Source: Zingiber officinale
Taxonomy: Eukaryota > Streptophyta > Magnoliopsida > Zingiberales > Zingiberaceae
Reading direction: 5' to 3'
NCBI RefSeq assembly: GCF_018446385.1
Contig: NC_056000.1
Span: 49,942,722-50,006,721 of the forward strand
Length of the DNA stretch: 64,000 nucleotides
Numbering within the stretch: the first letter of the stretch is position 1; each line of letters begins with the position of its first letter. The translations under genes and the position numbers were made by a program. Shown in pieces: positions 5,309 through 61,282 of this stretch. The notes beneath the pieces are model-generated. The model had not been told where the DNA came from, did no database searches, and saw only the letters and a program-made list of their open reading frames with translations.

Positions 5309-5594
5309 GTTTAAGGTCGTCGCTTGACCGTTGACATAGACTAGAGTTTAAGGTTGTCGCTCGACCATTGATGTCGACAAGGGTTTAAGGTCGCCTCTTG
5401 ACCGTTGATGATGACAAGGGTTTAAAGTCGTCGTTCAATCGTTGATGACGACAAGGGTTTAAGGTCGCCGCTCGACCGTTGATGACGACAATTGTTTAAG
5501 GTCGTCGCTCGACCGTTAATGATGACAAGGGTTTAAGGTTGCGACTCGACCGTTGATGACAACAAGAGTTTAAGGTCACCGCTCGACCGTTGGA
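5309..5594 (+). repeat. 37-bp tandem array, 8 units
   Basis: Units begin GTTTAAGG at 5309, 5346, 5383, 5420, 5457, 5494, 5531 and 5568. Each contains an inverted repeat, GGTCG-tcgct-CGACC, in most copies. It lies between the integrase 3' end and the antisense ORF 3' end, so both converging transcripts would run into it. A related, less regular array is in copy B (38062-38494, 40844-40969). Confidence 0.9.
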
Positions 5595-14150: not shown

Positions 14151-17100
14151 TCAGTGCTCTGGTTTTACTTTCACATCTCCATTTGGCAAAGTATGCTGGG
14201 ATTGTGCTGGTCTCCTTGATTCCTGAAAAAAAGGAAGCTAAACAATCAGCAAAATCGACTCTTCATTTTGTCAGTGATAGAGAAATAATTAGTCAAAGCA
14301 ATTGTCACTAAGAAATGTTTGCATCAATAAGCTTTTATGCAGAGATTAGTAATATATCACAAGTAGTTTGGATGATAATTTATCGAAAGGAATATATTTC
14401 CATTTAAGCATATAGATGAACATTTTACGACAAATTGGCATTCTGTTGTCTATGTTACTCAGAACTATGATTTTCCATGTATTCAAAACTGGCTGCTGAA
14501 GGTTAGTGCACTCCATGGCTGACTAGAACAGTATCTGCTGAATCTATATACAATCTATGATCTGTCTTATTTCCTTTAGATAACATTTGGATGTATCCAT
14601 AGCCTTCAGGTTTGTGCCCTCGCAAGGGGGAGAAATTTTCAGTTCATCAAATTTACAGCTATCGCAGCAAAATAGAATGTTCAATATGATTCAATTTGTA
14701 GTAGTTGATATTCAGTGAAAAAAAACGAATTGAAGTGCGATCTAGCAGTAGTTCATTCTATTCATTTGTACAAATTTAGTAGTTGGACATATGCCGTAAT
14801 GAGTCATCAGAGCAGAAGCACAAGTTATCATATGTCCTGAATAGCAAAAGAAATGCTGAATTTTAGCAAAAATTAAGGATGACTCTGAAGGGTTAAGCTT
14901 TTGACTTACAGCGGCAGAAGTACGGATCTCCCTGTACATGTCTACTTCATCAGGAAAAGCGTGATCAAGCTCCTCAAGGAGATGCTTTCGAAGGCTCTAT
15001 TACCATAGTAAAGATCATGAGCCAATGCAATGATATGCAACAATAAAAAGCAAATGGTTAATCAGAACATATTGTAAAAAAGCTATTGGCATTAAAGTTA
15101 TTCCAAACTAAGAAATTATAGTTGATCACCCTCTCAGTTGAGAAAGCATAATACATGAATCAACAAGATTAGTGAAACTCAGGATAACTAAAGCAGGGCA
15201 TAACAGGACTTGAGCATAATAGAGAGTATTAGTACAACATATATCATCAAAAAAATGCAACTTGAAATTTTCATTTTATGCAGAAAAGAAAAACAAAATA
15301 AAATCTTCACATATATATATTTAAAATTTTTTATGTAGGGAATTAAAGTATCAAATTAATATTGGAAAGCAATGCATTAAGATATAAATCAATCTTCCAA
15401 TCTTAGAGGTGATTTGAATGGTAGAAAAAAAAAGTGGACTCCTTAAGATTGTAAGGTCAACAAACAAGTTATTACATAGCCCGCAAATCTTCTGCTAAAC
15501 AGAAATCAATATGAGGATTGATCTGAAACTCAGTATACATTCATTTATAGTTGAATATGTTAGGACCAAAAGTAGCTAGAGGGGGGGGGTGAATAGCTCG
15601 TCGCGTTCGCTCGGTGCTTGGCGTTGCTCGGCGTTGCTTGGCGTTGATTGTTTCTTCAAGAATATGCAGCGGAAAATACAGAAACAAATACACCCACACT
15701 AACACTAGGATTTTACTTGGTATCCACCTCCAAAGGAGGTGACTAATCCAAGGATCCACACCACGCACGCACCCTCCACTATGAAACACTCCTTTTCGGT
15801 AACTACCGAGGGCGGAGAAGCCCTACAAGACTCTCGGTACAAGAAGAAGGAAAGGGAAACAAAATACAAGCACAAAGCTTACAATGAATGCAGAAAACCC
15901 TAACCCTAGCTTCTCTTCTTGCCTTTGATCCGCCTCTTGACTCGGAGAGCTTCCAAGAACCTTCAAGAACTGGCGATCACGAGCTTTGAGAGTGCTGTGG
16001 AGGAGCTGGCGAGAGATCGGTGAATCGAGAAGCGATGCGAAGGAAATGAACGCCTGCGGCCTTTACGCAACGGTCGGATCCCGGTCGATTCGAATGTTCC
16101 CAATCGATCGGGAGGCTTTGGATCGATCCACGGATCGATCCGGCGCCTATGCGCGCGAAAGCGCTGGATCGATCCACGGATCGATCCGGCGCTATCGCGC
16201 GACAGCGTCCCAATCGATCCATCGATCGATTGGGACCTCTGAATCGATCACGGATCGATCCGAGGCTCTCATTGGGGCGATCCATCGATCGATCGATCCG
16301 CGCTGGATCGATCCATCGATCGATCCGCATGTTTTGTCCAAAACCAAGTCCCGAACCTCCCAAACCAACATCCGGTCAACCTTGACTGTTGGTATGTCAT
16401 GCCTAGCATCTAGTCACTCCCTCGACTGCTAGGACTCCCTTACCAAGTGTCGGTCAATCCCTTTGACCCACTTGGACTTTTCTCTGTGCCAAGTATCCGG
16501 TCAATCCCTGCTTGGACTTTTCTTTCATGCCAAGTATCGGTCGATCCTTTGACCTACTTGGACTTCCGAGCACCGGATGTCCGATCATCCTCGATCCATC
16601 GGATTTTCCCTGCTCGGCTTCACTCACGGGACTTTCACCTAGCTTCACTCACTGGGTTTTCCATCGCCTAGCTTCACTCACTAGGACTTTCACGCTTCAC
16701 TCACGGATTTCCATCGCCTAGCTTCACTCACTGGGACTTTCATCCACTAGCTTTCGTCTTCCATCCGCCTAGCTTCACTCACTAGGACTTCACTGGCTTC
16801 ACTCACGGGACTTTCACCTGCCAAGACTTTCAACTGCCTTCACTCACTAGGTCTTTCATTTTGCCTAACATCCCGTTAGGACTTCCATCAAGTATCGATC
16901 AACCTTGACCTACCGACTCTTCTTGATCAATATCTTGTTCAAACATCTAAACCCAAACCAAGAATCGACTTGGTTACCCAGTCAACCTTGACCGAGGGAT
17001 ATGCACCAACAATCTCCCTTTGATGTTTGACAATACCAACACTTTACAATCTCATATATAAGTTAGGCTAATCCCATATCCTCCTTCTTCATGCCACTAG

Positions 17101-20100
17101 GTAATGAAGCATAAATTAAGCTCTTCATTCTCCCCAAGAGGCAAACTCCCTCTAGGTAATGAAGCCTAACTTACTCCCTTTCACCTTTCTTTCCCCCTAT
17201 GACCTTCCCATAGGTAATGAAGGCCTAAGCTTAACCATCATTCTCCCCTATTGGCACACATCAACCCATCGTTGGACACACATCAACCTATGCTCTAACA
17301 CTTGCAACAAATCCATTTGTTGAAGACTCTCCCCGAAGAGTTGCTCATCGTTGTTCACAACATCACTCGTTGTGATCAACACGATAATGAAGGTCCCATA
17401 CCCTTCATTTATCCTTAACGTCTCCCTCAATGTAGACAACTACCCAACCTTGAGCATTATCTAACCACTTGAGTGTCCACTTGAAATAATGAGGATATCC
17501 ACTCCCCATTTCTCCCCATTTCAAGTTTAAATGCTCAACCTTGAGCAAGTTCACACGAAGGTTAACCACCTTCCAAGGTTCATGAAAAAAATAATTTTCA
17601 TGTCTTTAAAGAGTCCCTCCCCCTAAAGACATGGTGGTAACTTCTGTCATTGCACCAACAATGACTTGGAATCCCTAAAACATTAGGAAACCCAAATTTA
17701 GAAGTTTTGAGGTTCAAATATTCAAAATTTGAAACACACCTCAACCTAAACTTCAACTTAGCCTTCCTTAACCAACCCATCCTTGTTTTCATATGAAAAC
17801 ACCCTTTTTATGGATACAAATGTATTTTAGGGGTTTGGAATGGTTACCTAGACTAAAATAGGTTCAAAGATGCTGAAATCAGGCCTTCCCAGCCAAAACC
17901 AGCAACTTGGATCGATTGAAGTTGGGTTCCAATCGATTGAACCTTTCTGAATCGATCCACTGATCGATTCAGACTCCCTGGATCGATCGGCTGATCGATC
18001 CAGCGAGCTTCTGCTCGCGGGAATTGCCGTTTGAATCGATCCATGGATCGATTCAGGAACTCCAATCGATCCATGGATCGCTCAGAGCTCTGATAGTTGC
18101 TGAAATTCTATTTCAACTTGAAACCCCTAGAAAATTCTACAAAAATCCAAAAATTATGAAATTTCGTGTAGACATTATTTAGGGCATACTTAATCATGGA
18201 AAAATAGCTTTCTATGAAAATACATCATATTTTCAAAGATTGACACAAACTTGAAAACTTACAAAAACTTTAGTGTTTTTCTTCAAGTTTGTGTCTAACT
18301 ATTCAATGGTGATTACTATCAAAAGATAGCCTTCACCAAGGTTTTCCAAAAACATTTTAAAAACATTTTCAAAACCAATATCCCATCATGTTCCTTGGGC
18401 ATAATGCACATGACTTGTACATTAGCTTTCCCAATGATGGGAAAACACATAACTATGTGTTTTGATGAACCTAAAAACTCAAAAGAATGCACTAAATCAA
18501 CATGTTGAGTTTTGTTCATCATCCTAACATCTCACTTGTATCTATTGTGGACAAAACACATACAAGTCACCTTATAGTCTTTGTGAGATGTAGATTTTGG
18601 TTTTTGCCCTAATCTAGGGATCATGCATATTTATCTAGGCATTTTAGAAATATTAGACATCCACCTAGGATGTCACTTGTCAATAAGTGTCGTTAAATGC
18701 CATTTGTCCTTAATTACAAGGAATTAAACTTAATGCATGATTATGTTATGGCATACATCAAAAGAAAATAATTTTCAAAAGAAAATATCCTATTGCTACA
18801 TGATGTATGAATGTCATGACATGGTATTTTTGGATTTTTCATAATAAAACATGAATGCAAAACTAGACATGATGTCATGACATATTATGGGCAAACAATC
18901 ATGGCAAGATTTAGCATAAATAAAATATACCTAGATTAACTATCTAAGTATCCTTAAAGTCTTAGCTAAACTTACAACTTAAACCTAGATTGCCCTAAAG
19001 TGCTACAAGAGAATGCCAAAGCCTAAATTTGGCATTTCTAATTTCCTTGATTTAATGTATGCCAATTGAAAATAAACATGTCCTCAAATGTTGGCATATT
19101 CCATTTTTCCTCAAGAGTAGCACTTTTAAATTTAAGGCCCGGATTGCCTTAAATTGCCTAAGAACATACCAAAATCCCAACTTGATAGTTCTTATGAATT
19201 TCCCAATATGTGCCATTTAAGATTAAAATCAATTCTTCCACCATTAGGCACATTTTACTCTTTCAAGGAGTAATCAATAGGTCCATTTCATTTTCAAAGG
19301 TTAACTAAAACCTTGAAAATGCTCCTTGAGTGTCAATTTCCTCAAAGTTGGGTTAACTACCCTTCTAATCGGAGTTGACACTCTCTAACCCATCTATGGG
19401 GTAGAGAAGATGCTCCTAGGAACCCAACACCTATTGGTGCTCCTTGGATGCTCTAGGTACTCACTAGGGATAACTTCCCTAGATACCTTCCTAGTGACCT
19501 TGTTGGGCTTCTTAGAAGCCTTGGTCACATTTTCTAGGTCAACTCTAGGGATAGCCTCCCTTGTGACCTTGTTAGTGACTTTCTTAGACTTCTTAGAAGT
19601 CTTAGTCACTTTGGTTGCAAAGATACTCTTAGGGATGACTTCCCTAGTATTCTTGGCTTGACCACTAGACCTAGGGTTTGTTCCATAACTATATGGAACT
19701 CTATGGTAAGAGGGCACATCCTTCTTAGCCTTTGGTTTGTATCCCAAACCTCTATGGCCATTAGATGACCTTTGTGCTCCTAGACCTAGGCTATGCTCAT
19801 TTTGCCCTTTTAGGATATTTTCCATCCTTTTTAGGGTCCTTTCCATTTTATCAAGCCTTGACCTCAAGACTTGATTTTCTATCACTAAGTCCTTAGTTTT
19901 AGATTTTTCATTTGATTCATGAGCATATTTGTTCTTGGGCTTGTATCTAAAATCTTTAGAGTTATTGCCCAAGTGTCTATCTACCTTCCTAACCTTAGGT
20001 TGGGTAGTTTTGGCATGTAGGGCCACATGTTTTTCCTTAAAGCCCTCATGCTTTCTATTCTTATGGTAAATTGCATTAAAATGATAAAAGTTAGAACTAT

Positions 20101-23100
20101 CATGCTTTTTACCATAATGTAAAGGGGTAGGCTCAATAAATGTTACCTTCTTCTTTACCTTGGAGGCTCCCCCTTGCCTAGTGCCTCCTTGAGCCTTGAC
20201 CACCTTCTTCCCCTTGGGGCATTGACTTCGGTAATGCCCCTTTTGATTGCAAGAGAAGCATATAATATGCTCCTTGCTCTTCTTTGTGTTGGGATGATCT
20301 CCTTGGGCTTCGCCTTGCCCTTTTGTGCCACTTGGCCCTTCTTCTTGGCCAATTTAGGGCACTTGCTCTTGTAGTGCCCATGTTCCCTACACTCAAAGCA
20401 TATAATATGATTTTTAATTTTAATTGAAATATTTATACCTTTGCTTGTAGGGGTTGCATCTTTCCCTTTGGCTCCGGAGGTAGAAGCTTCCTCTTGATCC
20501 GATCTTGATTCTCCTCCATTTGATTTTTCTTGACTCGTAGATGTAGAAGCTTCTTCCATCTCTTCATCTCTTGTCCCGGATGTAGAAGCTTCTCCTTATT
20601 CTGATCCGGTACCATGATTGCTCCCCTCAATCCTAGAGGTGGAGGCTTCATCTTGAATACGAAACAAGGAGTATGCTCCTCCTTGTTCCCGTTGCATTCC
20701 TTCAAGATGAAGCTTCTTGAACTTCTTCGGAGGTTATCTCTCAACCTCGGAGTCCTCCTCTTGGTCTTGATCCAACGTCGCCTCTTTGGATTCTTCTTGA
20801 TCTGACAGTGGAGGGATCTCTTTGCTCCAAAGCTCCTTGGCATCTTCAAACTCTCCAATTTGTTCCAAGATGTTTCTTGGCAATAAATTGACCAAAAGCT
20901 TGGTCACTTTGTCATTGGCCTCACATCTTTGGATTTGGTCTTTGCTCCACTTGCTCCTTTTGAGTACTTTGCCCTTGGAATTTGTGGGAGCTTCAAAACC
21001 TTCCATGAGAGCAAACCATTGCTCTATCTCCATCATAAGAAAATTTTCGATTCTTGATTTCCAAGAATCGAAACTCGTAGAAGTGTATGGTGGAGCCACC
21101 CTTGTGTCAAATCCAAGCCCATCTTGGAATTGCATCTTGAAGTTGAGCTTGATAAAATCTTGAACTTGAAGAATTTGCTCCAACTTCTTCACCCTCTAGC
21201 TTTTCTTATTATACTTGACCCTTCCGGCGATGATTCCAGTGAAGAGCGGCCTTGCTCTGATACCACTTGTTAGAACTAAAAGTAGCTAGAGGGGGGGGGG
21301 GGGTGAATAGCTCGTCGCGTTCGCTCGGTGCTTGGCGTTGCTCGGCGTTGCTTGCCGTTGATTGTTTCTTCAAGAATATGCAGCGGAAAATACAGAAACA
21401 AATACACCCACACTAACACTAGGATTTTACTTGGTATCCACCTCCAAAGGAGGTGACTAATCCAAGGATCCACACCACGCACGCACCCTCCACTATGAAA
21501 CACTCCTTTTCGGTAACTACCGAGGGCGGAGAAGCCCTACAAGACTCTCGGTACAAGAAGAAGGAAAGGGAAACAAAATACAAGCACAAAGCTTACAATG
21601 AATGCAGAAAACCCTAACCCTAGCTTCTCTTCTTGCCTTTGATCCGCCTCTTGACTCGGAGAGCTTCCAAGAACCTTCAAGAACTGGCGATCACGAGCTT
21701 TGAGAGTGCTGTGGAGGAGCTGGCGAAGATCTGGAGTGAATCGGAGAAGCGATGCCGAAGGAAATGAACGCTTGCGGCCTTTATCGACGCCAACGGTCGG
21801 ATCCCGATCGATTCGAATGTTCCCAATCGATCGGGGAGGCTTTGGATCGATCCACGGATCGATCCAGAGCGCCTCTGTGCTCTGGGAAAACGCCTGGATC
21901 GATCCAGCGCTTATCGTCGTAGCACTGCGTCCAATCGATCCATCGATCGATTGAGCTTGGTCCAATTGATCACTTGATCAAAGTGACCAACCCTAGCTCT
22001 CCCGAGTCACATATACCTCCCAAACCCAACATCTGGTCAACCTTGACCTGTTGGTACTTCTCGTGCCCAGCATCTAGTCACCCTCGACCTGCTAGTACTT
22101 CTTCACTAAGTGTCCGGTCAATCCTTTGACCCACTTGGATTTTTCTCCTCGTGCTAAGTGTCCGGTCAACCTTGACCTACTTGGACTTCTTTCATGCCAA
22201 GTATCCAATCCTCCTTGACCTACTCGGACTTCCCCACCGATGTCCGATCATCCTTGATCAATCTGGATTTTCTTCCAGGACTTTCACCTAGCTTCACTCA
22301 CTAGGGTTTTCCATCTGCCTAGCTTCACTCACTAGGACTTTCACCTGGCTTCACTCACCAGGATTTCCATCTGCCTAGCTTCACTCACTAGGACTTTCAT
22401 CTGGCTTCACTCACCAGGATTTCCATCTGCCTAGCTTCACTCACTAGGACTTCCTTCTGCCTGGCTTCACTCACCAGGACTTTTCTTCTGCCTGGCTTCA
22501 CTCACCAGGACTTTCATACTGCCTAGCTTCACTCACTAGGTCTTTCATTTTGCCTAACATCCCAGTTAGGACTTCCCAGTCAAGTATCCAGTCAACCTTG
22601 ACCTACTTGACTCTTCTTCAATCAATATCTTATTGTCAAACATCTAAACCCAAACCAAGACTCAGCTTGGTTACCCAGGTCAACCTTGACCTGAGGGATA
22701 TTGCACCAACAGAATAAACATTCATATCATCAATCATTTTGAAGAATTTTGAATTGTAAAGTGCATCAAATCATGAATGTTTCAGGTTCAATTAGGAATT
22801 GTAAAATAGGCTACAAATTTCTTGTATCCTATATATTAATAGTGTATTATCTTTATTTAAGAGGATAATAATGTATGATAAATAGACATATTGACCCTAA
22901 TTTATAATTACAAAAAGAAATGCATACATATCTCATTTGATCAAAAAAGTTCAAATTATCTAATTTAATTTCATTTAGAATTAAAATAAAATGAACTATA
23001 TTTCACCATCACTAGTTTCTGAAACAATATGGTAATCATTCACTCCACTCTATCCATTGACTTCAAGTGGAAAAAGACAGAGGGGAAGACAATTTCAATG

Positions 23101-38061: not shown

Positions 38062-38494
38062 GCCATGGGTTTAAGGTCGTCGTTCGACCGTTGAGGAAGA
38101 TTAAGTGAACACTAGATTTAAGGTCACCACTCAACCGTTGTTGTAGATCCGGGTTTAAGGTCGTCATTCGACCGTTTCTGTAGACCCGGGTTTAATGTCA
38201 CCACTCGACCGTTAAGGATGATTAGACGAACACTAGAGTTTACGATCACCGATCGACCATTGATGGAGACAAGAGTTAAAGGTCGCCGCTGGATCATTGA
38301 TGTTGGCTAACATTTAAGGTCGCCGCTCGACCATTGATGGAGACAAGAGTTTAAGGTCGTCTCTCGACCATTGACGGAGACAAGAGTTTAAGGTCGTCGC
38401 TCGACCATTGACGTAGTCCGAGGTTTAAGATCGCCGCTCGACTGTTGACGTAGTCCGAGATTTAAGGTTGCCGCTCGACCATTGACGTAGTCTA
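38062..38494 (+). repeat. Tandem array of Tat copy B, first half
   Basis: Units of GTTTAAGGTCGnCGCTCGACC type, 37-49 bp apart, related to the regular array at 5309-5594. The array is cut by the solo LTR at 38495 and resumes at 40844-40969. Confidence 0.85.
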
Positions 38495-40843: not shown

Positions 40844-40969
40844 GTCTAGAGTTTAAGGACGTCGCTCGACCGTTGACGTAGTCCGGGGTTTAAGGTCGCT
40901 GCTCGACCGTTGACGTAATCTTGGATTTAAGGTTGTCAGTTGATTGTTGAGAGAGACACTGTTAGGGTG
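40844..40969 (+). repeat. Tandem array of Tat copy B, second half
   Basis: About three units of the GTTTAAGG..CGACC repeat, between two solo LTRs. Two insertions of one family landed about 130 bp apart in the original array. Confidence 0.8.
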
Positions 40970-44960: not shown

Positions 44961-46827
44961 TGTTGGTGCAATATCCCCTGGGTTAAGGTTGACCAGATTG
45001 ACTAGCCTTGAGTTGGCTCAAGCCTGAGTCTTGATGTTTTGGGTTCGATATTTGACAATACATGGAGATTGCCGATGCAATTGTCCGATTGGGGAGATTG
45101 TTGATACAATTCCCATCTGGTCAAGGTTGATTAGTTAAATGTGAAGAAGAGTCAAGTTGGTCGAAGGGTTGACCGGATACTTAACCGGGAAAGTCCTAAC
45201 TGGAGGTTAGGCAGTTGAAAGTCCTGGTGAGTGAAGCCAGCTGAAAGACCTAGTGAGTGAAGGTAGGCAGTTGAAAAATCCTAGTGAGTGAAGCTAGGTG
45301 AAAATCCTCGTGAGTGAAGCTAGGCAGGTGAAAGTCCTGGTGAGTGAAGCTGGCCAGTAGGAAAGTCCTGGTGAGTGAAGTCATTCAGGTGAAAGTCTTG
45401 GTGAGTGAAGCCGAGCAGTGGAAAAATCCTAATAGTGAAGTCAGGTGAAAACCCTAGTCAGTGAAGCTATGTGAAAGTTCTAGTGAGTGAAGCCAGACAT
45501 ATGAGAAGTCCTAGTGAGTGAAGATAGGCAGATGAAAAATCTTGGTGAGTGAAGCCAAGCACATGGAAATATAGGTGGGTCAAGGTTAACCAGAAACCTG
45601 GTGTTGGAAAATCCAAGTAGGTCAAAGGATTGACCGGATACTTGGCATGAGGAAATCCAGATGAGTCAAGGGTGATTGGACATCTGGTGGAAGTCCAAGT
45701 AGGTCAAAGGATTGACCGGATACTTGTCACGAGGAAATCCAAATGGGTTAAGGGTGATCGAACATCTGGTGGAAGTTCAAATGGGTTAAGATTGATTGAA
45801 TACTTGGCACGAGGAGAAAAGCCTAAGTGGGTCAAAGGGATTGACCGGACACTTGGTGAAGGAGACCTAGCAAGTCAAGGTTGACCGAATGCTAGACATG
45901 AGGTTCCAACAGGTCACGGTTGACCGGATGTTGGGTTTAGGAACCTTGGACTTGATTTAGGCAAATCAAAGGTGGGTCAATCGATCAATCGATCGATTGA
46001 ACCATAGTCCAATCAATCAGTTAATCGATTGGATGTGTACTGTGAAGAAGGTTTGGCCCAATTGATCAGTCGATCGATTGGGAGCAATTGTCATGAGTAT
46101 AGAACCTTTCCCAATCAATCAGTCGATCGATTGGGCATCTCCAATCGATCGATTGGAGACTGAATTTCTCGCGCGCAGACACGAGAAAGGCTAGATCGAT
46201 TGGTCGATCAATTAAGCCATTTCCAGAGAGCATAGAGGTGCTCTGAATCGATCAACCGATCGATTCAAAGCCTCCCCAATCAATTGAGAGTCATTCAATC
46301 GATTGAGATCCGACCATTACGTAGGTTTAAAGTTGTTGCGAGCGATTTCTTTGACACGACTTCGAGTGCTTCTTCTCTGATCTTCACGATCTATTCTCCA
46401 CTGAGCTCACAGACACACACCAGATCTTGGAGGCTTAGAGAGGAGTGTTGTTGCACTTCCAAGTAAGCCAAGAGGTGTATTCAAGCAAGAAGAAAAGCAA
46501 GCTAGGGTTTCTGTCGTGTAAATCTTGTAAGATTTGACATTGTATTAGCTTGTATTTTGTTCTTCTTGTATATCTTTGTGTGTGAGCTTGTACAAGACTT
46601 CTTCGCCTTTGGTAGTTACTGTAAAGGAGTATTTTCATAGTGGATGAGTGAGTGAGGGTCGGATCTTTGGATTAGTCACCTCTTTTGGAGGTAGATACCA
46701 AGTAAATCCTAGTATTAGCATTGTGAGTATGTTTCTTGTTGTTTATTCACTGGACATCATCGAAGAAGCACATCAATGAGCTCATGAAAAACTATTCACC
46801 CCCCTCTAGCATATTTTAACCTTAATA
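44961..46827 (+). mobile_element. Solo LTR of the hairpin-rich family (1867 bp)
   Basis: Opens TGTTGGTGCAATATCCC and closes near the CCCCCTCTAGC landmark, as in the LTRs at 15558 and 21268, here in the opposite orientation. The last two bases are TA instead of CA. Flanks are GGTTT (44956-44960) and GGTTC (46828-46832); copy A has GGTTC at the empty site, so one base of the duplication has mutated. It carries all three hairpin blocks. Confidence 0.82.
45613..45934. repeat. Covarying hairpin array in the solo LTR
   Basis: Arm pairs: CCAAGTA/TACTTGG (45613-45645), CCAGATG/CATCTGG (45657-45687), CTAGCA/TGCTAG (45867-45895) and CCAACA/TGTTGG (45906-45934), with GGTCAA..TTGACC-type inner stems. 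The CCAGATG pair corresponds to CCGGATG/CATCGG of the other LTRs. Confidence 0.85.
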
Positions 46828-57431: not shown

Positions 57432-58263
57432 ATGACTTTCAACCCACTGTCCATCATACTTCAACAGAATAGACTTACTGGACCTAATTACATAGATTGG
57501 AAAAGGAACCTGGACATTGTCCTTCATCGAAAGCTATAAATTTGATCGATCGAGCCTTGTCCCAAGCACCCATCGTGAATCTACCCAAGAGGAAATTGAA
57601 TATCATAGGAAATGGGTAAAAGCATATGAGATGGCGCGGTGTTACATTTTGGCTTCAATGTCAAATGTATTGCAACATCAGCATCAAGATTTACCAACAG
57701 CCTATGATATTATGAACAATCTCAAGGAACTCTTTGGTCATTAGGATAGGGCTTCTAGACAAGAAGTCATGAGAAAGATAATGACAGCCACCATGCAAGA
57801 GGGTACTCCTGTGAGGGATCATATCCTAAAGATGATGGCTTATCTGAACGAGATACAGATCCATGGAGGAGAAATTGATGGGGAAACCCAGATCAATATG
57901 ATCCTCCAAACACTACCTAGAAGTTTTGAGCAATTCCGCCTGAATTACAATATGAACAAAAGGGTATATTCATTGGCGGAACTACTGACAGAACTTCAGG
58001 CAGCAGAAGGATTGTTTCGTCACAACTCTCATATTCACTATATTGAAAATGATTCTACTTCTAAGCCGAAAGGAAAGAAGAAGAAGAAACAAGTTGGTTC
58101 AGCAAAGAAAGTGAATAAATCTCAGAGTACAGGACCTAAAGCTGGAATGAAGAAGCCGAAGGGCAAGTGCTTCATCTGCAAGCAATCAGGGCATTGGAAG
58201 GCGGACTGTCCTCGTAGGAATCAGAACAACAAAGGGGTTCCAGGAAACCCGACGACTAACTGA
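57432..58263 (+). pseudogene. Gag of the Copia element
   Basis: Starts MTFNPLSIILQQNRLTGPNYIDWKRNLD (57432). A frame change near 57515 leads into the main frame 57517-58263. Features: HRKWVKAYEMARCYILASM, AYDIMNNLKELFGH, ILKMMAYLNEI, INMILQTLPRSF, and a CCHC zinc knuckle CFICKQSGHWKADC (58168-58209). One stop, TAG at 57742-57744, where a CAG codon (GHQDRASRQ) is expected. Gag forms the particle that packages element RNA. Confidence 0.85.
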
Positions 58264-59728
58264 AGGAGAGATTACCGTCTACATGGGCAATGCTACTAAG
58301 GTGGCGGCTGTTGCAGTGGGAGACGTCTACTTATCTTTTAGTAGAAATAAAAATTTGGTTTTAAGAAATTGTCTTTATGTACCCAGTTTTAGAAAGAATT
58401 TAATTTCAATTTCTAAACTGTTTTTAGATTGATATTCAGTTTCCTTTAGCAACGATGTAGTTATTAAGAGAAATAAAGTGATTATCTGTTCTGGTACATT
58501 AGTTGGCAATTTATATATTTTAAATCTAATTTCTCCCACAAAGCAAAACATGAAAATTTATAACTCATCTTCTAACTCAAATAAGAGAAAAGAACCTTCG
58601 GAAATGAACCAAGTATATCTTTGGCATCTAAGGCTTGGTCATATTAACTTAAGTAGGATTCAGAGGCTAATAGCCGATGGACTTTTGGGTTCATTAGAGT
58701 TGGAAAATTTTTCAACTTGTGAATCTTGCTTAGAAGGTAAAATGACCAAGAGGTCGTTCAAGGCCAAGGGGTATAGAGCCAAAGAAATGTTAGAATTGGT
58801 TCATTCTGATTTGTGTGGTCCTATGTCTGTCCAGGCAAGAGGTGGTTTTGAATATTTTGTCTCTTTTATAGATGATTATTCAAGATACGGATACATTTAC
58901 CTAATGCGCCGCAAGTCCGAGTGCTTTGATAAGTTCAAAGAATACAAGGCTGATGTGGAGAAACGACTAGGTAAAAGTATCAAGACACTATGATCTGATC
59001 GTGGTGGCGAATACCTCTTAGGAGAGTTTAGGAATTACTTATCAGAGGCTAGGATTCAATCCCAATTGTCTGCACCTGGAACACCCCAACAAAATGGTGT
59101 AGCAGAATGAAGGAATAGGACTCTTATGGAGATGGTTAGATCGATGATGAGTTATTCAGAATTACCAAATTCGTTTTGGGGATATGCTCTAGAAACAGCA
59201 GTATACGTTTTGAACTTAGTACCTTCTAAATCAGTTTCTTCTACTCCCACAGAATTGTGGAATGGGCGAAAACCCAGTCTAAAACATATTCGGATTTGGG
59301 GTAGTCCAGTACATGTGCTGAAACCAGATGCTGATAAGTTAGAATCTCGTACAGAAGTTCGAGTGTTTGTAGGATATCCCAAAGGAACGAAAGAAGGTTT
59401 ATTTTATAGTCCTAAAGACCAGAAGGTCATTGTTAGCACCAATGCCCAGTTTTTAGAAGAAGACTATATAATGGATCACAAACCCAGTAGTAAAGTTGTT
59501 TTAGAAGAACTAAGAGAGGACACGTCTACTTTAGTACCAACAGTACAAGATGAAGTACCACAAGAAACTGCAACACGTGTCACACATGATACACAACCAC
59601 ATACAGTGCCTCGTCGTAGTGGGAGGGTTGTAAGGCAGCCTGAGAGATTCATGTTTTTGGGAGAGTCTTCGGACTTGATCCCGGGTAAACATGAACCTGA
59701 TCCCCGGACATATGACGAAGCACTCTAA
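58264..59728 (+). pseudogene. Protease and integrase of the Copia element
   Basis: The protease region is recognised by order and by VYVGNATKVAAVAVGDV-like and LYVPSFRKNLISISKL; its catalytic Asp motif is not clear. The integrase zinc-binding motif is LWHLRLGHINLSRI .. CESCLEGKM, followed by the core HSDLCGPM, FIDDYSRYGYIYL and APGTPQQNGVAE. Stops: TGA 58430-58432, TGA 58991-58993, TGA 59108-59110 and TAA 59726-59728. Each is one C-to-T or G-to-A change from the expected codon. Confidence 0.85.
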
Positions 59729-61282
59729 GATATAGATGCAGCATCTTGGCAAAAGGCGATGAATTCTGAAATAGAGTCTATGTACTCTAATAAGGTCTGG
59801 GAGCTTGTAGAACCACCTGATGGTGTAAAAGCCGTTGGATGCAAGTGGATCTATAAAAGGAAAAGAGGGACAGACGGGAAGGTAGAAACCTTCAAAGCTA
59901 GGCTTGTTGCGAAAGGGTACACTCAGAAAGAGGGAATCGATTATGAGGAAACCTTTTCACCGGTAGCCATGCTTAAGTCTATCCGGATACTTTTATCCAT
60001 TGCTGCTCATATGGATTATGAGATTTGACAAATGGATGTCAAGACAGCTTTCCTTAATGGAAGTCTTGAAGAGAACATCCATATGAAGCAACCAGAAGGG
60101 TTCATTGAAAAAGGCAAAGAGCATCTAGTGTGCAAGCTCAATCGGTCCATTTATGGACTGAAGCAAGCTTCAAGATCTTGGAACATCCGGTTTAATGAAG
60201 TAATCCAGTCATATGGATTTATTCAAAGTCCGGATGAGTCTTGTATATATAAGAAGTGTAACGGAAACGTGGTGGTATTTCTTGTACTATACGTAGATGA
60301 TATTTTGTTAATTGGCAACAATGTCAAGGTATTATCAGACGTAAGGGTATGGTTGTCCAAACAATTTGATATGAAGGACTTAGGAGAGTGTGCACACATT
60401 CTTGGGATCAAAGTAATAAGGGATCGCAAGAAAAGAATGTTGTGTCTGTCCCAAGTTTCATATATAGATACAATCCTTGCTCGTTTTAGCATGCAGGATT
60501 CCAAGAAAGGTTTCTTACCTTTTAGGCATGGAATAGCTCTATCTAAAGAGATGTCTCCTAAGACATCAAAGGAGATAGAAAACATGAAAGCAGTTCCTTA
60601 TGCCTCGGCTGTAGGAAGCCTTGTGTATGCAATGCTATGTACGAGACCTGATATTTGTTTTGCCGTGGGCATGGTCAGCAGATATCAGAGTAACCCTGGA
60701 CAAGGACATTGGACTGCGATAAAACATATATTAAAGTACCTGAGAAGGACTAGAGATTATATGCTAGTTTACCAAGCAGACGATTTGCTCCCTGTGGGTT
60801 ACACGGATTCAGATTTCCAATCAGATAGGGACAACAGTAAGTCTACATCAGGCTATGTGTTTACTTTAGGAGGTGGAGCCATTTCATGGAGGAGTGTTAA
60901 GCAGAAATGCGTTTCGGACTCAACCATGGAAGCTGAGTATGTAGCAGCCTCTGAGGCAGCTAAAGAAGCAGTATGGCTCAGGAACTTTCTAATAGACTTA
61001 GATGTGATTCCTTGTTTGCCCAAAATCATCACAATTTATTGTGATAATAGCGGTGCAGTTGCAAACTCGAAGGAACCACGAGCTCATAAGGCAAGTAAGC
61101 ATATAGAGCGCAAATACCACTTGATACGAGATATCGTGAAGCGAGGAGAAGTTGTCATCGCCAAGATTGCATCAGCGGATAACCTGGCAGATCCTTTCAC
61201 TAAGGCCCTTCCAGCAAAAGCTTTCGATCGACATGTGGAGGGAATGAGAATCAGATGTATGGTAGAAGATATGACAGCTTAG
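59729..61282 (+). pseudogene. Reverse transcriptase and RNase H of the Copia element
   Basis: [69 protein letters not shown] and the active-site YVDDILL at 60290-60310. RNase H: YTDSDFQSDRDNSKSTSGY, DSTMEAEYVAASEAAKEAVW, CDNSGAVA and ASKHIERKYHLIRD. All catalytic acidic residues appear present. One stop, TGA at 60026-60028, in place of the Trp in DYEIWQMDV; after it 416 codons are open to the TAG at 61280-61282. It would convert RNA to cDNA. Confidence 0.9.

Follow-up and report, generated by a model that had tools for sequence, protein, structure and literature searches.

Palindromic repeats in the long terminal repeats (LTRs) of Sireviruses were described by Bousios et al. in 2010 as repeated-motif (RM) boxes, which lie in the upstream half of the LTR in at least eight copies, in elements that carry a polypurine tract (PPT) with an AT/TG junction and a flanking inverted repeat (PMC2829016). 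The ginger LTR described here shares all of these traits. In the RM boxes, each element has one short palindrome sequence, its copies are 66.5-100% identical, and a CGG-CCG core is found in 12 of 13 cases (PMC2829016); in the ginger array, by contrast, the arms differ between units, the 9-nt loops or 17-20-nt cores are alike, and the CGG-CCG core is lacking from both hairpin classes, although boxes are nonetheless numerous and GATCGATC and CGGTC..GACCG palindromes are present elsewhere in these LTRs. In maize Sireviruses, predicted LTR hairpins have been tied to small RNAs; the palindrome clusters there, with strong predicted structure and an excess of mapped small RNAs, resemble our locus, the difference lying in the most abundant motif cited there, CACCGGACNNNGTCCGGTG (PMC10760457). 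That paper, which cites the 2016 maize work, does not contain the word 'compensatory'. An earlier note on this DNA, made from the letters alone, knew of no described LTR of such a kind, a claim that the palindromic motifs published in 2010 do not support (PMC2829016). A literature search that left most subscription journals and Bousios et al. 2016 outside its reach returned no description of an LTR array in which the cores stay constant while each unit has covarying arms of its own, and no test separating replicating from dead copies. Palindrome-rich Sirevirus LTRs are already known, and the constant-core, covarying-arm layout appears to be a variant that we have not found described.

The window, that is, the whole 64,000-nucleotide stretch of Zingiber officinale DNA that was analysed, holds an element on the minus strand from 22711 down to 15558. 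Its 3′ LTR (15558-17011, minus strand) and 5′ LTR (21268-22711, minus strand) have the same termini on that strand, TGTTGG at the start and CTAACA at the end, and match each other in two blocks of 93% and 81% identity; GAATA target-site duplications flank the element at 15553-15557 and 22712-22716, and a primer binding site, TGGTATCAGAGCAAGG, which we take to be of the tRNA-iMet type, lies two bases after the 5′ LTR at 21250-21265 (minus strand). Two LTRs with TG..CA ends, a target-site duplication and a primer binding site for a tRNA next to the 5′ LTR identify an LTR retrotransposon. Because the element lies on the minus strand, its RNA strand is the complement of the strand that had been read in the earlier note, which was thus the antisense one.

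Several non-coding marks place the element further. The terminal PPT, AAAGGGAG followed by AT (17012-17021, minus strand), adjoins the TG of the 3′ LTR and so forms the Sirevirus AT/TG attachment site. Next to it lies the left arm (17022-17035, minus strand) of a 14-nt inverted repeat whose right arm (22631-22644, minus strand) is exact in the 5′ LTR only, no exact match of at least 10 nt having been found when the opening 200 bases of the 3′ LTR were compared; an inverted repeat at the PPT and inside the LTR is again a Sirevirus trait, the right arm here being 68 bp inside the LTR compared with a published Sirevirus mean of 28 (PMC2829016). A further Sirevirus trait, repetition of the PPT ahead of the 3′ LTR, is represented by 11 purine tracts of at least 8 nt with at least 3 G at 17021-17624, such tracts occurring elsewhere in the internal region too. 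Also internal to the element, on the side of the 3′ LTR, GATCGATC palindromes whose arms measure 7-17 bp are clustered at 17937-18080, and the interval 17100-18100 has a folding z-score of -13.

The coding content is slight. A Pfam scan of five of the nine stop-to-stop open reading frames of at least 80 aa within 17012-21267 recovered a gag remnant with a CCHC zinc knuckle (19394-20353, minus strand) as the sole domain, and neither pol nor RVT_2 was found in those frames; since the zinc knuckle stands alone among the scanned frames, the element looks non-autonomous. SIRE/Maximus-type Ty1/copia elements have a primer binding site, a PPT junction, a gag zinc knuckle and long LTRs, all of which are present here, unlike pol, which was not found in the scanned frames. 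By its non-coding marks, the element thus looks like a Sirevirus-like one of Ty1/copia type. Between 15400 and 22900, none of the 4,227 Rfam models reached its gathering score, the five weaker matches being to four miRNA families and one sRNA. Elsewhere in the window, a diverged relative of the 15558-17011 LTR with both hairpin classes lies on the plus strand at 44965-46800, and plus-strand copia-type gag, gag-pre-integrase, SH3-like and RVT_2 domains at 57745-61282 apparently belong to a different, more complete element.

Two hairpin classes make up the array. Read in the sense direction, a long unit consists of a 7-nt arm, GGTCA, a loop, TGACC, A or G followed by GA, and a second 7-nt arm, and a short unit is CCTGG-TGAGTGAAG-CCAGG or CCTAG-TGAGTGAAG-CTAGG. 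The five hairpins with differing arms that had been reported from the 3′ LTR were found at 16364-16602 (all units on the minus strand): ACCAACA/TGTTGGT at 16364-16393, CCTAGCA/TGCTAGG at 16402-16433, CCAAGTG/CACTTGG with the inner stem GGTCAA/TTGACC at 16443-16475, CCAAGTA/TACTTGG at 16530-16561, and a fifth at 16573-16602. They had been called consecutive and are present in that order, but a sixth, degraded long unit (CCAAG/CTTGG, 16489-16515) that had been overlooked sits among them. The arms of the fifth unit, also said to be complementary, pair imperfectly in this copy, although relatives carry versions that pair throughout. The layout reaches well beyond 16365-16602: it takes in the short hairpins, recurs in the 5′ LTR and is shared by a very large genomic family. 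A short-unit array with the loop TGAGTGAAG follows at 16616-16880 (exact units at 16667-16685 and 16768-16786), within which a CCTAAC/GTTAGG hairpin lies at 16864-16880. On the minus strand of the 5′ LTR, long units lie within 22025-22184 (22025-22055, 22067-22095, 22106-22138 and 22154-22184), and a short-unit array spans 22287-22611, with eight exact CCTAG/CTAGG or CCTGG/CCAGG units from 22287 to 22540 and a long unit with arms GTCAAGTA/TACTTGAC at 22579-22611. The number of units differs among LTR copies. Unit-borne hairpins occur in other sequence of the window as well, 37-bp tandem repeats whose unit holds a small GGTCG..CGACC hairpin being found at 5309-5592, 38117-38490 and 40851-40933.

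The pairing exceeds what base composition would give. Within 16365-16602 there are 4 perfect inverted repeats of at least 6 bp (gap 3-30), as against 0.86 ± 0.81 and a maximum of 3 in 200 dinucleotide shuffles, and the folding energy has z = -3.7 (100 shuffles); for the whole LTR the corresponding figures are 17 inverted repeats against 6.54 ± 2.13 (200 shuffles) and z = -5.9 (40 shuffles). The comparison was widened to 88 LTRs, namely those of 102 sequences that had a usable LTR start; L001-L040 were relatives of the 15558-17011 LTR, L041-L075 came from places with GC/GC units, and L076-L080 and L089-L100 were drawn from a list of A.C forms, which raises the A.C counts of the sample and leaves the genome-wide counts unaffected. 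These LTRs contain 453 long units, found by their core with the arms unused, among which there are 84 distinct arm pairs. Within a unit the two arms form Watson-Crick pairs in 88-97% of cases at each of positions 1-7, whereas, when two units of one LTR have different 5′ arms, the 5′ arm of the first matches the 3′ arm of the second in 39-54%, with 84% at position 6 (n = 1996). The observation that arms are unlike between units yet complementary within them therefore extends from five hairpins to the family.

Detection by a core pattern fixes some core letters, so that core pairing among the 453 units and in the covariation test below is partly by construction, and core figures were therefore taken from 376 units located by nine named outer-arm types. 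In these, the five core pairs are standard in 93-98% of cases, which bears out the inner stem of type GGTCAA/TTGACC, and two pairs are nearly fixed (T-A in 353 units, A-T in 367). Exact genome-wide counts of the short-unit forms gave 110,714 GC/GC, 99,394 AT/AT, 7,846 G.U and 4,783 A.C, so that 210,108 of 222,737 are Watson-Crick forms; these are largely copies of two old forms, and the counts thus show association, not the number of events. They refer to a 3.09-Gb assembly of 211 contigs, presumably with both haplotypes, the ginger assembly having been described as haplotype-resolved, Nanopore-based and about 3.1 Gb in size, with 11 chromosome pairs (PMC8342452).

Some LTR copies in this assembly are short of CAG/CTG trimers and show dozens of 1-4 base deletions relative to their partner LTR. 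Over the first 1000 bases, the pair formed by 15558-17011 and 21268-22711 has 34 against 16 trimers and 46 small deletions, 20 of them touching a trimer; L034/L007 have 38 against 14 trimers and 38 deletions, L059/L085 behave likewise, and four other pairs have 1-4 deletions. The assembly being likely a Nanopore one, the suspected cause is miscalling of bases at CHG sites that are methylated; such losses would inflate LTR dating.

Family-wide covariation, for which R-scape had been proposed, was assessed against shuffles in an alignment of 70 of the 178 distinct long units, taken in random order (840 cells, 490 of them in outer arms). The named structure is paired in 93.7% of cells, compared with 81.9% in shuffles and 14-37% when partners are slid. 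Changes on both sides that leave the pair intact account for 127 cells, 115 of them in outer arms, as against 42.2 ± 4.9 in shuffles, and the covariation score is 0.463 against 0.241 ± 0.012; none of 500 shuffles was as high in either measure, a count that is not a probability because the aligned units are related. Two of the five covariation measures did not rise above the shuffles, namely pairs with any two-sided change (182 of 500 as high) and further pair types (201 of 500). All seven outer pairs vary on both sides. In corresponding units a full path can be followed, CCAAGTG/CACTTGG, CTAAGTG/CACTTGG and CTAAGTG/CACTTAG all being present, and compensated pairs include CCTAGCA/TGCTAGG versus CTTAGCA/TGCTAAG (6 loci, 4 elements) and ACCAACA/TGTTGGT versus ACCAATA/TATTGGT (5 loci, 3 elements). 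The array accordingly consists of hairpins in which the core or loop is constant and the complementary arms, peculiar to each unit, covary between units and lineages.

Simple tandem duplication alone and random decay alone are both excluded by the excess over shuffles, the unit-specific pairing and the covariation, as had been anticipated from the five hairpins. Another account is that a few ancient hairpin types were spread by tandem duplication and exchange, with pairing unselected. The two main short-unit forms and the variable unit number among copies would agree with such shuffling of units, as would the short-unit arm types CCTGG and CCTAG, which alternate above chance (shuffles give 149.7 ± 7.7 unlike neighbours, and 181 of 286 are observed); long units have no such excess (274 of 284 neighbours differ, 273.7 when shuffled). 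Compensated changes in corresponding units with unchanged cores would not be expected from it, nor would the arm constraint seen on the tree described below, and we consider this explanation very unlikely.

The two LTRs of a single element record what happens after insertion. In 20 LTR pairs, inferred from strand, spacing and identity (at least 0.928) and not from duplications, 1,343 stem pairs are unchanged and 73 changed; 71 of the changes are one-sided, 2 are two-sided without a Watson-Crick result, and none is compensated. G.U and A.C pairs arise equally (30 and 29). The pair L007/L034 stands outside these totals, and L014/L016 and L069/L070 were left out, each having a member without a usable LTR start.

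Changes between lineages were placed on a tree of 65 of the 88 LTRs, computed from LTR sequence that lies outside the array, an inner branch being one with at least three tips. Outer-arm changes fall on inner and end branches in the ratio 6:58, compared with 11:24 for the loops of the same units (Fisher p = 0.010) and 366:534 for the LTR outside the array (p = 9e-8), whose alignment may overstate inner-branch changes; with transitions only, the ratios are 5:33 for outer arms and 177:323 outside the array (p = 0.004). The inner stem is loop-like (7:24) and adds no support for constraint. Among changes shared by at least three tips, 3 lead to G.U, 1 leads back to a Watson-Crick pair and 1 to another (non-A.C) mismatch; two-tip changes comprise 2 to G.U, 2 to A.C, 5 to other mismatches and 1 compensated, and on single tips, besides a small number of rarer kinds, 9 changes lead to G.U, 16 to A.C and 21 to other mismatches, with 1 compensated. 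Events on this tree are few. Units were placed in slots when their arms differed in no more than 4 of 14 letters, by which strongly changed ones are lost, and each slot is filled in 32-59 of the 65 LTRs; where an LTR had several units of one type, the first was used, with 54 extra copies and 27 unassigned units left out. With these caveats of slots and alignment, the outer arms behave as predicted if lineages that replicate are under purifying selection and dead copies decay neutrally. The absence of compensation among the 73 changes within elements, together with recurrent compensation between lineages and the arm constraint, suggests that pairing is kept while the element replicates and not after insertion.

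The differing yet pairing arms had earlier been put down either to selection for structure or to a copying process that rewrites both arms. Template switching between arms or palindrome correction could match arms without selection, and in comparisons of LTR with LTR the two-sided changes that stay paired are more numerous than independence would give in all 12 identity bins, the rows of which are not independent; two two-sided Watson-Crick changes near the tips (one in L060/L086, one on a single tip) also have no seen intermediate. On the other hand, the lack of any compensated change within elements speaks for no noticeable action of such copying on inserted copies, and one-sided states last through many of them: CTAAGTG/CACTTGG occurs in 19 elements, TCAAGTA/TACCTGA in 4 and four others in 3 each. 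The scarcity of inner-branch arm changes would also go unexplained by copying alone, and we regard it as most improbable. Were one arm rewritten from the other, inherited one-sided states ought to be rare; since they persist, selection for the hairpins, working through compensation in steps, is a better account than rewriting.

At which level selection would act is a separate matter. The hairpin domain occupies the upstream half of the LTR, probably U3. As U3 is the 3′ end of the genomic RNA, an array in this half of the LTR would lie at that end. A G.U pair on the sense strand is an A.C on the other strand, so that an excess of G.U would point to RNA. In the core this ratio is 100:26 in the sample of 376 units and, for the innermost core pair of units with CCAAGTA arms, 6,684:235 genome-wide; however, the innermost core C sits in a mutable CpG and its partner does not. 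Outside the array, sense C>T and G>A changes number 58:33 on inner branches and 125:116 at tips (65 LTRs), which looks like a bias towards one strand during replication, and the short-unit excess of 7,846:4,783 (1.64) is no larger than the 58:33 bias. Hence the G.U/A.C excess as proof of the RNA strand is undone by the CpG at the core and the sense C>T bias. Core classes present in at least three elements number 8 G.U and 1 A.C, the latter taken for a register artefact; against 30:29 this gives p = 0.067 (8:1) or 0.008 (8:0), and against the 58:33 bias p = 0.11 with the A.C class and 0.027 without it. Pooled inherited variants, 17 G.U and 7 A.C, do not differ significantly from the 30:29 within elements (p = 0.14).

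Folding energy does not identify the RNA strand either. In the first 600 bases of 24 of the 88 LTRs, absolute fold energy is lower in the sense direction in all 24 arrays, whereas shuffle-relative z-scores do not favour sense (-5.35 versus -6.53 for antisense; more negative in 7 of 24), the antisense strand being as good or better. This parity would suit a DNA-level role, in which the units would be cis-regulatory palindromes, binding or cruciform sites in a U3 enhancer. The core GGTCAA/TTGACC is presumably an inverted pair of W-box-like TTGACC motifs, and its sequence type, with the two nearly fixed pairs in 353 and 367 of 376 units, varies little between units, unlike the arms, much as a protein site would. 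Sirevirus palindromic boxes have been placed upstream of the TATA box, in work that recovered mostly stress-factor sites (PMC2829016). Nevertheless, sequence-specific sites should keep their letters, and the outer arms change while still pairing; many cores, moreover, read GATCA..TGATC or have GTGACC as their second half, by which the motif is lost. Regulatory palindromes in DNA are thus a possible but rather unlikely account, and the array would more likely act at the RNA level.

Taken as a whole, the reading we prefer, with a probability of roughly 60%, is that of a Sirevirus-like LTR hairpin domain whose pairing is kept by selection during replication, most likely at the RNA level. The hairpin units would have multiplied by tandem duplication, and their arms would have diverged by stepwise compensatory substitution, partly through G.U on the sense strand, with purifying selection across replication cycles keeping each unit foldable. 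The folded array may then act in RNA, near whose 3′ end it would lie, immediately past the polypurine tract, packaging and 3′-end protection being candidate roles; as a cost, small RNAs may be produced from its hairpins, as has been proposed for maize Sireviruses (PMC10760457). A bolder version, which we hold to be doubtful, sees the LTR as a modular RNA scaffold of about 10-20 hairpins with a packaging or protection role, in which arms would be selected to be mutually distinct for local folding and would be compensated through G.U steps. If it were true, arm diversity itself would be selected, and short-unit alternation would be its trace.

Most LTRs vary so much that no conserved structure can be seen in them; here more than 220,000 short units were counted in one genome. 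Because the two LTRs of one element display neutral decay beside the inherited differences between lineages, selection on structure can be separated from such decay within one species. The pattern suggests that what copying preserves is the ability to fold and not the precise letters, and the purpose of palindromic Sirevirus LTRs, whether RNA structure, promoter sites or a silencing trigger, becomes directly testable.
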